Positions 47,529-52,491 of a DNA stretch of 64,000 nt are shown one piece after another. This stretch comes from Anaerococcus tetradius ATCC 35098 (lineage in GTDB: Bacteria; Bacillota; Clostridia; Tissierellales; Peptoniphilaceae): contig NZ_GG666295.1 in assembly GCF_000159095.1 (NCBI RefSeq), positions 227,022 to 291,021 on the forward strand. Direction: 5' to 3'. The position numbers and the translations under genes were made by a program. The notes beneath the pieces were generated by a model. That model saw only the letters and a program-made list of their open reading frames with translations. It had not been told where the DNA came from and did not search any database. Positions within the stretch are counted from its first letter, which is position 1; each line of letters starts with the position of its first letter.

Positions 47529-48362
47529 TTAGTTACTAAATGTAAAGCCTTCACCTAATACTTCTGAAACTTGATATGTGAAAATAAAGGCCCTATCATC
47601 AATTTTCATAACTTCTTGTCTAATTCTTGGGTAATTTCTAATTGTAGTTACCGTCATTACTACATTCTTTTCTTTTTGAGAGTAGCCTCCTTCAGCCTTT
47701 AGCAAGGTAACTCCCCTCTTATGCTTTTCTAATATAGCTGTATTTACCTCTTTATACTTATCCGATATGATCAAAATAGCAATCTTCCTTCCAAAACCTT
47801 GGATAAAATAATCAATACCAATTGATTGAATCATTATAGTTAAAACTGCATATAGGGAAAGCTCTATTCCGAATACAAAAACAGAAAGACTAACTACTAC
47901 AAAATCTGCTAAAAACATGCAAATATGTATAGGTAGATTTGTTAATTTGTTTACAATTGATGCAATCAAATCAGTTCCACCAGTAGAAGCCCCATGGTAA
48001 AAAACTATAGCAAGTCCAAGACTCATTGTTATAGCGCCAAATATAATATTTATAATCTTATCATGACTTAATATAAGATGCGGAAATAACCTTTCAAATA
48101 TAATAATAAAGCCTGATAGAGCAAAGGATGCAAGCAAAGATTTTTTTGCAAAATCATAACCCATAATCCAAATTCCTAGTCCTAAAACAAATATATTTAA
48201 AACCAGGGTATATATTCCGACACTTAAAGCTGGAAAAATTGTTGATAATACTAGTGAAAATCCAGATATACCGCCAGCTGCAATATCATGTTGTATTAAG
48301 AAAAAATAGAGGCCAAATGAAATTAAAAAGGTCCCAAAAAATATCCACATATATTTTTTCAT
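47529..48362 (-). CDS. YitT-family membrane protein
   Basis: 277 residues. Six hydrophobic helices (DUF161, residues 5-190, HGASTGGTDLIASIVNKL) precede a C-terminal DUF2179 domain (KRGVTLLKAEGGYSQKEKNV, IDDRAFIFTYQVSEVLGEGF). Function is unknown; a transporter role is often supposed. It starts a short operon with cvfB. Confidence 0.9.
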   Translation of the reverse strand: MKKYMWIFFGTFLISFGLYFFLIQHDIAAGGISGFSLVLSTIFPALSVGIYTLVLNIFVLGLGIWIMGYDFAKKSLLASFALSGFIIIFERLFPHLILSHDKIINIIFGAITMSLGLAIVFYHGASTGGTDLIASIVNKLTNLPIHICMFLADFVVVSLSVFVFGIELSLYAVLTIMIQSIGIDYFIQGFGRKIAILIISDKYKEVNTAILEKHKRGVTLLKAEGGYSQKEKNVVMTVTTIRNYPRIRQEVMKIDDRAFIFTYQVSEVLGEGFTFSN

Positions 48363-48417: not shown

Positions 48418-48443
48418 TCTTAATTAAATTTTATTATTTAAAA

Positions 48444-48476
48444 AGGATGCTGTATTAAGATTATATACAACATCCT
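48444..48476 (-). terminator. Terminator of the ptsI transcript
   Basis: 12-bp stem AGGATGTTGTAT / ATACAGCATCCT on the minus strand (one mismatch, 9-nt loop), then TTTTT. It lies 5 nt after the stop of the kinase-like gene. Confidence 0.85.
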
Positions 48477-48481
48477 CCATT

Positions 48482-49375
48482 TCACTTTGCCCAGCTTGGG
48501 AGTAAACGATTAAAATCATCGTACATTTTCATCAAATCATCAATTTGATTTTCGTCTAAATTATGATCTTTATCAATGTTCTTATCGACCTTGTTATATA
48601 AAATCACATAAGCTTGGTATAAGCTTAATAGCCTAAAAAACTTTCTAGAAGGTCTCTTGCCATTAAAATATCCATCCAAAACTCCCTGAGCAAATTTTGG
48701 ATAATCTATTGCAATTTTATTTATATCAACGAAGTCAAAAACTCCATCGCCATATTCTATTTCTTTCAATCCCCTAAAGTCTAGTTTGTCACCATCGTAG
48801 ACCCTAATGTTTTTATCATTAATTTTTCCATGCAAGAGATTGATAGGAGTATTCTTTGTCAGGTGAATATTGTCTTGAATATAATCAATCAATATATAGT
48901 CCCTATCTCCTATGTCTTCAGATAATCCATGAATATAGAATAGATAATTAGATTTAGTTAAGAATTTTTTCTCCCAATCAATATTTTCTGTTATTTTGCT
49001 TTTGTGAAACTTTTCCAAAAGAAAACCAAATTTTTTACCAATAGAAAACTGCTTTTCTTCATCACTTTTTGCCAAAAATTCCTTTAGAGATTTTTCTTTC
49101 CTATATTCGAAAATTTTATAGGCTTTATTTTTGTCTGGCATAATGCCTTCTTCATAAATCTCAAGTGGCTCCAAACCAATATTTTTAAGAATATCTTGTA
49201 AATATCCTTCATTAGCTATTGATTCATGATAATCCATATCATACAAGGCAAAAACATATGACTTGTCATCGGCATTAATTTTAAATTTGTTTTCAGAAAT
49301 TTTAACAACTGATTGTATCTTTTTTTTATTTTCAAAAAGTTTGCTACGTTTCAAAAAATCATAATTATTAGTCAT
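48482..49375 (-). CDS. Aminoglycoside/choline kinase-fold protein lacking catalytic residues
   Basis: 297 residues. The outline is that of APH/choline kinase-fold proteins: an N-lobe (KSYVFALYDMDYHESIANEG), a linker, and the Brenner-like motif at 182-190. However, the motif reads LLHGKINDKNIRV, where the catalytic Asp of HGD is Lys 184; the metal-binding Asp of the usual (I/V)DW/F-E-D-A stretch before YGDGVFDF (208-215) appears as RGLKEIE; and the N-lobe ATP lysine position reads FAL. It is probably a pseudokinase. It is encoded 3 nt after ptsI and ends at a strong terminator, so it is co-expressed with enzyme I. Function unknown. Confidence 0.72.
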   Translation of the reverse strand: MTNNYDFLKRSKLFENKKKIQSVVKISENKFKINADDKSYVFALYDMDYHESIANEGYLQDILKNIGLEPLEIYEEGIMPDKNKAYKIFEYRKEKSLKEFLAKSDEEKQFSIGKKFGFLLEKFHKSKITENIDWEKKFLTKSNYLFYIHGLSEDIGDRDYILIDYIQDNIHLTKNTPINLLHGKINDKNIRVYDGDKLDFRGLKEIEYGDGVFDFVDINKIAIDYPKFAQGVLDGYFNGKRPSRKFFRLLSLYQAYVILYNKVDKNIDKDHNLDENQIDDLMKMYDDFNRLLPSWAK

Positions 49376-49378
49376 TTT

Positions 49379-51082
49379 TTATTTGTGCTCTTTTACTAAT
49401 TTTTCTACTTCCTCTGTTAGTTCGCAATCCAGAATTTTTTCTGCAAATATTGCTTCTTCTTGTTGGCTTGAATTAATAATTGTATCCTTAATTTCAGCTA
49501 TTTTTGCAGATGAACCTGAAAATTCATCAAGACCCAAACCTAACAAAAGTTTTACTGCATCTGTATCAGAAGCGAAAGCCCCGCACATTCCTGTCCATTT
49601 TCCAGCTTCGTGAGAAACATCTATTACATGTTTAATAGCTCTTAATACAGCTGGATTGTAGTTTGAGTAAAGGTTGGCTATATTTTCATTTCCTCTATCT
49701 ACAGCTAAGGTATATTGGGTTAAATCATTGGTTCCTATAGAGAAGAAATCAGCATATTTAATAAATTTATCTGCCATAATTACTGATGAAGATGTTTCTA
49801 CCATGATTCCAACATCAAGGTCTTTGTTATAAGCAATTCCTTCTTTATCTAGTTCAACTTTTATTTCATCTACCATTCTTCTTGCTTCTTTTAGCTCATC
49901 AATATTTACTACAAAAGGTATCATTATTTTAAGATTTCCAAAAGCTGAAGCTCTTACCAAGGCCCTCAATTGCTTTTTAAACATATCCTTTTTATCTAAA
50001 CATAACCTTATTGCTCTATAACCTAAGAATGGGTTTTCTTCTTTAGGGAAATCATAATAATCTAAACCCTTGTCCCCGCCAATATCGAGTGTTCTTATAA
50101 TAAGTGGCTTATCTCCAAGCATTTGTGTAGCTTCTTTATAAACTTCAAATTGACTTTCTTCTGTTGGAAAATCAGAGCTTTGCATATATAAAAACTCTGT
50201 TCTAAATAGACCAACACCATCGCATCCGTTTTCTATAGCTAACCTTAAATCATCAAGATTTCCAATATTTGCTGAAACTTCAACTTTCTTACCATCTTTG
50301 CTTATTGCAACTTTATCTTTAATTTCTCTAAGTCTTATCTTCTTTTCTTTTTGCTCTTTAATTAGAACTTCATACTTAGCTATTTCTTCTTCTGATGGAT
50401 TAACAATTAATAATCCCTCATTGCCATCAAGTATAGCTTTTTCTCCACCCTTAATCTTAGTTGAAATATCTCCCATACCCACTAGGGCTGGCATATCAAG
50501 AGTTTGGGCAATGATTGAAGTATGGCTAGTCTTACCACCAAGATCTGTAGCGAAACCAACTACAGCTTCCTTATTCATATTTGATGTGTCTGAAGGGGTA
50601 AGCTCCTTAGAAATTACAATACTTCCCTTAGCAAGATTTGATAAATCCTTTGCTTTTATTCCCTTCAATTTATACATAACTTGAAAACCTATGTCTTTAT
50701 AGTCACTTGCGCGCTCTCTTAGATAATCATCATCAAGTTGACTCATTATTTCAACCATTTCTTTAATGGTCTCATCTAAGGCAAGCTCTGCATTTTTAAG
50801 TTCGTTTGTGATCTTAGACTCAATTGTATCAGTAAAATATGGATCAGATAACAACTCAGTGTGGGCAGCTGCAATATTAGCTTGTGCTTCGCTTGCTCCA
50901 TCAAGATTTGATAATTCTTTCACATATTCATCAATAGCATTCTTTACCTTAGCAAATTCAGCCTTGGTTTCTGCTTCGCTAATTTTTCTATCATCAACTA
51001 CAATTTCGTCTCTGGTGAATAGGTATAATTCTCCAATGGCTAAACCACCGCTAGCTTTTAAACCTTTATATCTTTCGGCCAT
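49379..51082 (-). CDS. ptsI: PTS enzyme I (phosphoenolpyruvate-protein phosphotransferase)
   Basis: 567 residues. It takes phosphate from PEP and gives it to HPr. The phospho-acceptor His 187 is in GFATDLGGKTSHTSIIAQ; the PEP-binding domain has EFLYMQSSDFPTEESQ, IIRTLDIGGDK, NPFLGYRAIRLCL, MVETSSSVIMAD and MCGAFASDTDAV. A clear AAGGAG precedes the ATG. It is separated from ptsH by a terminator hairpin rather than overlapping it as in Bacillus. Confidence 0.97.
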   Translation of the reverse strand: MAERYKGLKASGGLAIGELYLFTRDEIVVDDRKISEAETKAEFAKVKNAIDEYVKELSNLDGASEAQANIAAAHTELLSDPYFTDTIESKITNELKNAELALDETIKEMVEIMSQLDDDYLRERASDYKDIGFQVMYKLKGIKAKDLSNLAKGSIVISKELTPSDTSNMNKEAVVGFATDLGGKTSHTSIIAQTLDMPALVGMGDISTKIKGGEKAILDGNEGLLIVNPSEEEIAKYEVLIKEQKEKKIRLREIKDKVAISKDGKKVEVSANIGNLDDLRLAIENGCDGVGLFRTEFLYMQSSDFPTEESQFEVYKEATQMLGDKPLIIRTLDIGGDKGLDYYDFPKEENPFLGYRAIRLCLDKKDMFKKQLRALVRASAFGNLKIMIPFVVNIDELKEARRMVDEIKVELDKEGIAYNKDLDVGIMVETSSSVIMADKFIKYADFFSIGTNDLTQYTLAVDRGNENIANLYSNYNPAVLRAIKHVIDVSHEAGKWTGMCGAFASDTDAVKLLLGLGLDEFSGSSAKIAEIKDTIINSSQQEEAIFAEKILDCELTEEVEKLVKEHK

Positions 51083-51142: not shown

Positions 51143-51403
51143 TTATTCAGATAAGTTATTGATAAATTCAACTAATTCATCTGCAAATTTTTCTTCATCT
51201 TCACCTTCTACTACTAAGGTAATTTCTGTTCCTTTAGCAATTCCAAGGCTCATAACGTTGAAGATTGATTTAGCATTTGCTTCTTTGTTTTCTTTAATTA
51301 TCTTAACTTCACCTGGGTAATTTTTAACAAATTGAACTAATGATGCTGCTGGTCTAGCGTGTAGGCCAGTTTCATTAGCTACTACGACTTTTCTTTCTGC
51401 CAT
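51143..51403 (-). CDS. ptsH: Phosphocarrier protein HPr
   Basis: 86 residues. Active-site His 15 in NETGLHARPAASLVQF and regulatory Ser 46 in ANAKSIFNVMSLGI are both present, so it can act in sugar transport and, if phosphorylated on Ser 46 by HPr kinase (not in this window), as CcpA co-repressor. AGGAGG precedes the ATG. Confidence 0.97.
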   Translation of the reverse strand: MAERKVVVANETGLHARPAASLVQFVKNYPGEVKIIKENKEANAKSIFNVMSLGIAKGTEITLVVEGEDEEKFADELVEFINNLSE

Positions 51404-51437
51404 AATTGCATGCCTCCTAAATTTATATTACATTATT

Positions 51438-51465
51438 ATTTTACTATATTTTTTGGATTTAACAA
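51438..51465 (-). promoter_or_regulatory. Candidate ptsH promoter
   Basis: Minus strand TTGTTA (51460-51465), 16-nt spacer, TAAAAT (51438-51443). An imperfect pair in AT-rich sequence; a small inverted repeat (GGATTTA/TAAATCC) overlaps the -35 and could be an operator. Confidence 0.42.
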
Positions 51466-51480
51466 TAAATCCATTTATCA

Positions 51481-52491
51481 TTAATTTATAGCCTTGGTAG
51501 ATTCTCTCTTTATGATTTGACCATCTATAATCCAATCTTCTTCTAGAATATCTTCTTCTTCCTTGATTCTTTTAATCAAAGCACGTATAGATATAGCTCC
51601 AATATCATAATATGGAATAGCTACTGTACTTACCTTTGGTCTATAGATACTTGCTATATTTGAATCGCCAAAACCGGTTACAGATAAATCATCAGGAACA
51701 GATATATTGTTATCAACGCAATAGTTTATAAAACCTATAGCTACCTCATCATTTACACAAGAAACCGCTGTAATATTTTTTTCTTTGACTAATTTAATTA
51801 CATCTTCTCCGATATTGTAGCCATCGTCTGATTTTATACCTTTTGTATCATAAACATATGCTTTCTTGCCACAAGATTCAACTGCTTCTTTATAACCTCT
51901 TAGCATATTTTCATTAAGTATATTATTATCATCATGATTGATATATAAAATATTATCATGACCAGCTTTTATAAGATTTTCCACAAGTTTCTTTTCCTCT
52001 TGGGCGTAGTCAATCTTTACTGACTTAACATTTTTATAAGTATGATACTTATCTAATAGTACAAAAGGTATCCTTCTATCTCTTAATTTTACCAAAACTT
52101 CTGGTGATATGTTTTCTGTTATAATAACAAGACCTTCTACTTGTTTGGTAGCCAAAAAATCTATTGAGTTTTCTAAGGCTTCCTCATCACCATAAGAACT
52201 TGAAAGTAAAATATCGTATTTATATACCCTACCTATTTCCTCTATGCCTCTAATAAGTTGAGCCATATATTCAATGCCAATATCTTCAACTATGACACCA
52301 ACCAAATTTGACTTTCTCATAACTAATGATCTAGCAAGCTCATTTGGTTTAAAATCAAGTTTATTTATAGCATCAAGAACTTTTTTTCTTGCTTCAGGAC
52401 TTACAGGCTTAGAATTATTCATCACTCTGGATACAGTAGAGATTGATACGCCAGCAAGTTTAGCTACATCTTTAATTGTTGGTTGACCCAT
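51481..52491 (-). CDS. LacI-family regulator, CcpA-like
   Basis: 336 residues. The N-terminal DNA-binding domain TIKDVAKLAGVSISTVSRVM with the hinge region (residues about 45-60, PNELARSL) is followed by a periplasmic-binding-like domain (GVIVEDIGIEYMAQLIRGIE; VTGFGDSNIASIYRPKVSTV). Its position immediately upstream of ptsH suggests a CcpA-type catabolite regulator using HPr-Ser-P, but the HPr contact residues cannot be assigned with certainty by eye. Confidence 0.82.
   Translation of the reverse strand: MGQPTIKDVAKLAGVSISTVSRVMNNSKPVSPEARKKVLDAINKLDFKPNELARSLVMRKSNLVGVIVEDIGIEYMAQLIRGIEEIGRVYKYDILLSSSYGDEEALENSIDFLATKQVEGLVIITENISPEVLVKLRDRRIPFVLLDKYHTYKNVKSVKIDYAQEEKKLVENLIKAGHDNILYINHDDNNILNENMLRGYKEAVESCGKKAYVYDTKGIKSDDGYNIGEDVIKLVKEKNITAVSCVNDEVAIGFINYCVDNNISVPDDLSVTGFGDSNIASIYRPKVSTVAIPYYDIGAISIRALIKRIKEEEDILEEDWIIDGQIIKRESTKAIN

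Follow-up and report, generated by a model that had tools for sequence, protein, structure and literature searches.

A putative pseudokinase of the choline-aminoglycoside kinase fold encoded directly behind enzyme I of the phosphotransferase system in Anaerococcus and related genera

Proteins of the APH/choline-aminoglycoside kinase (CAK) fold that have lost catalytic residues have been described previously. According to the available parts of one report, the spore kinases (BSKs: YtaA/CotI, CotS, YutH and YsxE) include five members without the catalytic Asp that are predicted pseudokinases, as well as BSKC6, which lacks the whole N-lobe, and they keep a structural His/Asp pair (PMC2860764). 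In CcrZ (YtmP), an APH-fold cell-cycle regulator, five active-site residues (H, D, N, D, D) are conserved in over 80–95% of the family, and mutation of three of these residues causes growth defects, as stated in the accessible sections of PMC8387234. HprK has a P-loop fold unrelated to APH (PMC12189002, available portion), and bacterial Ser/Thr pseudokinases form conserved families of mostly unknown function (PMC12599244, likewise in part).

Here, we analyzed a 64,000-nt stretch of the Anaerococcus tetradius ATCC 35098 genome (the window), the minus strand of which carries, in this order, a CcpA-like regulator, ptsH, ptsI, a gene for a degenerate kinase-like protein (hereafter, the pseudokinase) and a YitT-type gene:

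51481..52491, (−) strand: LacI/CcpA-like regulator (TIGR01481, 258 bits, under its cut-off of 442)
51143..51403, (−) strand: ptsH, encoding HPr (PF00381, 3e-30)
49379..51082, (−) strand: ptsI, encoding PTS enzyme I (TIGR01417, 4e-189)
48482..49375, (−) strand: pseudokinase gene, encoding an APH/CAK-fold protein of 297 aa (open reading frame with an ATG start)
48442..48478, (−) strand: hairpin, a probable terminator with a T-rich 3′ side (from folding energy)
47529..48362, (−) strand: YitT-family membrane protein, the next gene past the hairpin

The first-pass annotation of this DNA had the kinase-like gene beginning 3 nt past ptsI and sharing its terminator. The open reading frame coordinates bear out the 3-nt gap, and the hairpin lies directly 3′ of the pseudokinase stop codon, with a folding energy of −16.7 kcal/mol (z = −5.3) that none of 200 shuffled sequences equaled; it was not listed by a consensus terminator scan, the loop limit of which is 8, the hairpin loop being 9. 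Because the gap is too short to hold a terminator and a strong hairpin follows the second gene, one terminator probably serves both, and the layout indicates that the pseudokinase is probably co-transcribed with ptsI. Promoter-like matches were uninformative (32 versus 28.6 in shuffles). The CcpA-like regulator found directly upstream of ptsH-ptsI (window positions 51143–52491) has the same place in many of the loci read from other genera (e.g., L032, L066, L067, L068, L071, L074, L085, L088 and L089).

Searched by itself, the window protein gave no match to Pfam or NCBIfam at E ≤ 1, and its homology to PF01636 and to intact APH members was found through its homologues and a family profile: 10 of 15 close homologues matched PF01636 at the loose limit of E ≤ 1 (best 4.7e-6), and hhalign joined the pseudokinase profile to intact APH-like relatives of the same order end to end (100%, E = 2e-39, 290 columns). 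NCBIfam contains CotS, YutH and YsxE models, none of which was listed for the window protein or 10 further proteins scanned, and a sequence search of the PDB gave chance-like matches only (E = 0.38 for the window protein and 0.31 for the profile). An AlphaFold2 model of the window protein, built with 26 relatives in the alignment, reached a pLDDT of 89.3 and a pTM of 0.85 and displayed a two-lobed APH/CAK fold with a helical insertion. Its top structural match was APH(9)-Ia (Z = 18.7, rmsd 4.1 over 269 residues), and the best 50 structures listed (Z = 15.4–18.7) were all APH-like kinases, namely aminoglycoside, macrolide, spectinomycin, hygromycin and corramycin phosphotransferases as well as homoserine, N-acetylhexosamine and fructosamine kinases, CcrZ and similar proteins; Foldseek TM-scores, by query length, were 0.48–0.63 among the 50 matches listed. 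The predicted model and the profile alignment therefore agree on the APH/choline kinase fold that had been proposed from the letters of the sequence, the prediction gave no sign of a different fold, and we regard the CAK assignment as confirmed at the level of a structural model.

Four positions in the alignment describe the fate of the active site:

49247..49249, (−) strand: Ala43, at the N-lobe Arg position of the 13 intact-motif relatives (alignment)
48824..48832, (−) strand: His182-Gly183-Lys184, replacing HGD, with the catalytic Asp lost (alignment)
48770..48772, (−) strand: Gly202, replacing the metal-binding Asp of IDF (alignment)
48746..48748, (−) strand: Asp210, kept in 54/54 degenerate rows and, together with His124, a probable fold-stabilising pair (alignment; role inferred from the available part of PMC2860764)

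The catalytic HxD Asp and the metal-binding IDF Asp, together the hallmark of active APH-type phosphotransferases, are occupied by K184 and G202 in the window protein, the active-site positions of which read A43, H182, K184, N189 and G202. All 13 intact-motif relatives have Arg (N-lobe), His and Asp (HGD), Asn (GN) and Asp (IDF) in every row, although these rows were chosen as intact by motif, so that their 13/13 figures hold partly by definition. Profile alignment placed residues 182–184 onto HGD, and the alignment of the individual rows placed G202 at the metal-binding Asp, which upholds both replacements that had been read from the sequence; the HGD of the intact relatives thus does not align elsewhere in the protein. 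A frameshift or mis-annotation behind the missing motif was ruled out, since the frame is open, the alignment runs from end to end and HGK sits on HGD. The missing N-lobe Lys, which had also been cited as a sign of inactivity, is indeed absent (A43) but carries little weight alone because the intact relatives have Arg there (13/13). Across the 54 degenerate homologues, the HGD Asp is found in 5, the IDF Asp in 4 and both in none, so the claimed loss of the phosphotransfer residues is supported, and Asn189 is retained in 32. Just four of the 54 have HGK, as the third position varies (N, K, I, D, G, F and others), so the idea of HGK as a conserved motif failed; the signature of the family is the loss of catalytic residues and not a new HGK motif. 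Asp210 is the later Asp of the GD motif, and His124 is invariant in an alignment of 23 diverse members.

A 65-row tree that left out the catalytic columns and was rooted by choice on the intact rows separated 52 degenerate rows from the 13 intact ones by a 100/100 branch (two split genes, L022 and L093, were left out of the tree, and L055 was left out of alignment A2). The first degenerate branch (99/89) consists of genes directly behind ptsI, with 30 Anaerococcus rows, seven from neighboring genera and G120, the branch of which is very long, and the second (98/95) holds g6, g47, g50, g52 and g56. At the level of sequence, the tree shows common descent of the degenerate forms, with a single origin. 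Outside the family, 28 genomes of the same order contained a match, and 25 of these were examined (5 + 20; G059, G175 and G178 left out). Among the 20 further order members, HGD is intact in 19 and reads HGN in one (L152), DYIxxD (a signature described below) occurs in none, and no ptsI was found within the 4.7- to 7-kb stretches around them. The HGN of L152 (genome G195) lies in a 525-codon open frame with no ptsI nearby and possibly marks a separate loss of activity. In a class-level sample of 391 genomes, the 26 non-family matches all scored ≤143 bits, while family pseudokinases scored ≥184 bits except for G120 at 102 (the two pieces of G112 scored 194 and 100); class matches were judged by bit score only, a criterion that would overlook a pseudokinase diverged as far as G120.

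To describe the distribution, we used 130 genomes of the family (31 Anaerococcus, the window's own genome included) and counted as true ptsI those scoring >300 bits, except for G003, the ptsI of which is split into pieces scoring 574 and 241 bits; the best ptsI-search score among genomes without a true ptsI was 118. In genome counts added up by hand, a kinase-like homologue was present in 58 of the 130 and a true ptsI in 77. Four of the 58 (G083, G086, G090 and G116) contain intact kinases only and no degenerate form. The pseudokinase occurred in 54 of the 77 genomes with a true ptsI versus 0 of the 53 without, and it immediately followed ptsI in 42 of the 54, i.e., in all 31 Anaerococcus and in 11 genomes of other genera (G033, G035, G082, G084, G085, G092, G094, G095, G096, G108 and G120). 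The suggested check for a conserved ptsI link thus came out positive, through the genus Anaerococcus and beyond. A separate set of 27 named loci (24 Anaerococcus) overlaps the 130-genome sample and is not independent of it.

In six further genomes (G102, G107, G109 and G112–G114), the pseudokinase lies 1.7–3.1 kb downstream of ptsI, separated from it, in the five other than G112, by a radical-SAM gene (family shown for G109, and G107 by likeness) or by two opposite-strand PLP-enzyme genes (shown for G113, and G102 and G114 by likeness). The remaining six, all g56 (G124–G129), carry it unlinked to ptsI: four have a divergent ptsI 52–59 kb away, and in two the pseudokinase and ptsI are on different contigs. 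A mazF-like gene, named from its first residues only, precedes the pseudokinase in the three g56 loci read, with a gap of 16 nt in L080:3717-4944(+) and L073:4045-5275(−), L090 being the third locus. Where ptsI is linked, the ptsI side is constant while the downstream neighbors differ between genera (YitT, sugar-epimerase-like, ModE-like winged-helix, Fur plus zinc-transporter-like, purC-like or carbamate-kinase-like; names read off the first residues except for the window YitT and the winged-helix protein).

The pseudokinase is missing from 23 of the 77 ptsI genomes, including G083, the two congeners of which carry it. In the g53 genomes G115 and G117–G119 and in G093, a YitT-like gene follows straight after ptsI and the slot is empty. 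A hidden divergent copy was rejected for the ptsI surroundings of 20 of these 23 genomes (G074, G081 and G116 left out), in which a profile of 23 pseudokinases gave a best E-value of 0.055, to an HPr. Among the 54 carriers, the gene is open in 51 and split by a frameshift in G030, G112 and G127, the short copy of G127 (L090) being a frameshift and not a deletion. At L055/L095 (A. obesiensis), a frameshift breaks the pseudokinase gene, and at L050 (A. vaginalis PH9), ptsI; sequencing error is possible. The loci L109 and L110 of genus g31 stand apart, with an enzyme I only ~40% identical, HPr after it (the reverse order) and no HprK match.

Next, we considered selection on the gene. Nei-Gojobori dN/dS for the pseudokinase ranged from 0.03 to 0.22 in the 11 closest Anaerococcus pairs (0.45 in the 12th), and from 0.01 to 0.09 for ptsI in its 12 closest pairs. 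Across the 402 of 465 pseudokinase pairs with dS <2, the median was 0.37 and the maximum 0.79 (0.13 for ptsI and 0.27 for YitT), figures from pairs that are not independent and that saturate at larger distances. The low values in the closest pairs show that the pseudokinase is under purifying selection and not simply decaying. It nevertheless diverges faster than its neighbors (mean distance of 0.98 versus 0.35 for enzyme I and 0.71 for YitT), and eight residues are invariant across 23 diverse members. Pooled over 13 close pairs, dN/dS was lowest in the catalytic region 177–208 (0.07), followed by the C-terminal helices (0.11), the insertion (0.13), the N-lobe (0.19) and the long helix (0.22); the catalytic region is thus constrained within Anaerococcus subgroups though different between them.

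Conservation across the whole family has a different center, located in two further features:

48848..48997, (−) strand: helical insertion, residues 127–176, the best conserved region of the pseudokinase (conservation shares)
48884..48901, (−) strand: DYILID, residues 159–164, the pseudokinase signature, present in 0/13 intact relatives (alignment)

The mean share of the commonest residue in clade A, clade B and the intact relatives, respectively, was 0.61, 0.60 and 0.47 in the insertion; 0.37, 0.38 and 0.55 in the N-lobe; 0.49, 0.47 and 0.63 in the long helix; 0.45, 0.42 and 0.61 from the catalytic loop to IDF; and 0.57, 0.57 and 0.55 in the C-terminal helices (23 pseudokinase and 10 intact representatives, with a gap counted as no match). 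Six N-lobe-less rows depress the N-lobe share of clade A, yet clade B, which has none, scores 0.38. The insertion carries a GxxDYIxxD signature, with DY[ILV]xxD in 50 of 54 degenerate rows and in none of the 13 intact ones; the four exceptions are DYMxxD (two), EYVxxD (one) and a similar EYV stretch in G120. Since the signature is nearly unchanged in the unlinked g56 proteins, it is not tied to ptsI adjacency.

The N-lobe is missing altogether from six ptsI-linked homologues of 202–211 aa (two Anaerococcus, G033, G084, G085 and G094). Their genes start between ~20 nt past the end of ptsI and 23 nt inside it, which indicates that the N-lobe was deleted and not lost to a frameshift, and the tree requires at least two such events. 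The 202-aa protein of A. nagyae is predicted to fold alone (pLDDT 90.9, pTM 0.89), and its model matched the same APH families in Foldseek, with weak E-values of 0.002 and above.

Taken with the loss of the catalytic and metal-binding Asp in a lineage of APH/CAK-type small-molecule kinases, these patterns suggest a protein retained for a non-catalytic role. Binding would occur through the C-lobe, above all through the two-helix insertion with GxxDYIxxD; the partner would be a PTS protein, enzyme I being the first candidate and HPr the second; and the pseudokinase, probably co-produced with enzyme I given a gene start that coincides with or lies close to the ptsI end, may adjust phosphate flow through the bound protein and hence PTS flux. 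We hold this reading tentatively, at somewhat under an even chance. In a more pointed form, to which we give slightly less credence, a former antibiotic-type kinase has become a dedicated binding regulator of enzyme I or HPr, with its recognition site in the CAK insertion and not in the old active site. Nucleotide sensing would be a weaker version of the regulator idea, for which the first-pass annotation had named a sugar phosphate, a nucleotide or a PTS protein as candidate ligands, because the N-lobe is weakly conserved and absent from the six ptsI-linked homologues. The strongest counter-result, and the reason for staying below one half, is a distance-matrix test on 22 of 25 loci plus the window (L046, L050 and L055 left out), in which enzyme I displayed no excess correlation with the pseudokinase (partial r = −0.15, 23 sequences). 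The corresponding values were 0.47 for the CcpA-like regulator, 0.32 for YitT, 0.09 for a PpiC-like and −0.47 for a CvfB-like protein; with six genes, each r given the other four and no significance test, this is a crude measure that is compatible with binding. Further points that weigh against PTS binding are the unlinked copies of the six g56 genomes, the 23 ptsI genomes that lack the pseudokinase, its fast divergence, the three frameshifted copies and the persistence of the signature in g56.

The lack of an enzyme I signal would equally suit a conserved pseudokinase with a partner outside the PTS, such as a metabolite, a transcription factor or another protein, that stands behind ptsI merely to be expressed during sugar uptake. 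We consider an unrelated partner of this kind nearly as likely as PTS binding: in g56, the pseudokinase has persisted away from ptsI with its signature almost intact, and a ModE-like winged-helix gene (112–117 aa) is the next gene in g6, g47 and g52, but the pseudokinase is found in 0 of the 53 genomes without ptsI, and a winged-helix homologue occurs in only 4 of 31 Anaerococcus, the copy of the window's genome lying on another contig. As a general partner, the ModE-like gene is thereby ruled out for Anaerococcus. In g6, g47 and g52, these genes trail the pseudokinase by ≤20 nt or overlap it and may encode a second partner (L032:6550-6888(+), L069:3678-4016(−), L071:3627-3971(−), L072:4877-5215(+) and L076:1664-2017(−)); the L069 protein matches TIGR00637 (1e-19, 70 bits, under the cut-off of 98.5).

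The other explanations leave less room. Some pseudokinases of other families retain activity by an unusual route, and the remodelled stretch 177–208, with the lowest dN/dS of the five regions in close Anaerococcus pairs, together with Asn189 in 32 of 54 rows, could be taken to point that way; we judge persisting enzymatic activity unlikely, given that the same stretch is poorly conserved family-wide (0.45 and 0.42), that the catalytic and metal Asp never occur together and that six linked homologues have no N-lobe. A decaying remnant carried along with ptsI would account for the fast divergence, the N-lobe losses, the absence from 23 of 77 ptsI genomes and the three frameshifted copies, yet it is very improbable for a gene that is open in 51 of 54 genomes, evolves under purifying selection (already disfavored by dN/dS) and keeps eight invariant residues in 23 diverse members along with the insertion signature. 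Just as far-fetched, in our estimate, is a folding or assembly helper for enzyme I in place of a regulator: a co-translational helper would fit the 42 adjacent cases, most of which have their start codon right at or close to the ptsI end, but the 77 ptsI genomes of this family include 23 whose enzyme I does without the pseudokinase.

Anaerococcus is non-sporing. As far as the available text of PMC2860764 goes, the BSKs share with the pseudokinase family described here the CAK fold, the loss of the catalytic Asp (in five BSK members), the loss of the whole N-lobe in some members (BSKC6 there) and a structural His/Asp pair (here, the invariant H124 and D210 in 54/54 rows, a correspondence that we infer for a pair that is not BSK-specific), but they form a spore-coat family, whereas the window protein is ptsI-linked and has its own DYIxxD signature. 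CcrZ resembles it in its APH fold and offers a regulatory role with a protein partner (the model matches 7s3l, Z = 16.3), but going by the accessible part of PMC8387234, CcrZ retains its active-site residues, whereas the window protein has lost the Asp pair and with it the H, D, N, D set. The intact APH-like kinases of the same order (e.g., L033, L035 and L070), matched by the profile at 100% and placed on the other side of the 100/100 branch, are putative kinases with HGDYHxGN...IDF...GDP intact, no ptsI link and no DYIxxD; among solved structures, L035 comes closest in sequence to APH(2'')-IIa and -Ib. HprK regulates the PTS pathway, the pathway proposed here, but replacement of a missing HprK by the pseudokinase was ruled out, since 117 of the 130 family genomes, every one of the 31 Anaerococcus among them, encode an HprK; in the window's genome, it is a separate gene (G000:C100:109571-110074). 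The pseudokinases of PMC12599244 are Ser/Thr-kinase-like and ours is APH-like; the available text of that 2025 review makes no mention of the phosphotransferase system, CAK or Anaerococcus, and that of a 2025 phosphorelay review (PMC12189002) names one pseudokinase, SpkE, with no link to enzyme I. The first-pass annotation knew of no described example, and in agreement with this, no PTS-linked pseudokinase was described among the best matches listed in the open-access literature, the scope of which leaves out subscription papers. CAK-fold pseudokinases are already known, and one linked to ptsI, here with a DYIxxD signature, had no counterpart among those matches.

If the preferred reading is correct, a conserved, co-expressed, non-enzymatic partner of enzyme I would represent a new control point of the PTS, a layer of control not described before. 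The PTS is among the best-studied bacterial systems for sugar uptake and regulation, and enzyme I is its point of entry. A single bacterial family also records the change from kinase to pseudokinase, with intact cousins, two degenerate branches and members reduced to the C-lobe, and this set makes a shift of function from the active site to the insertion directly testable.
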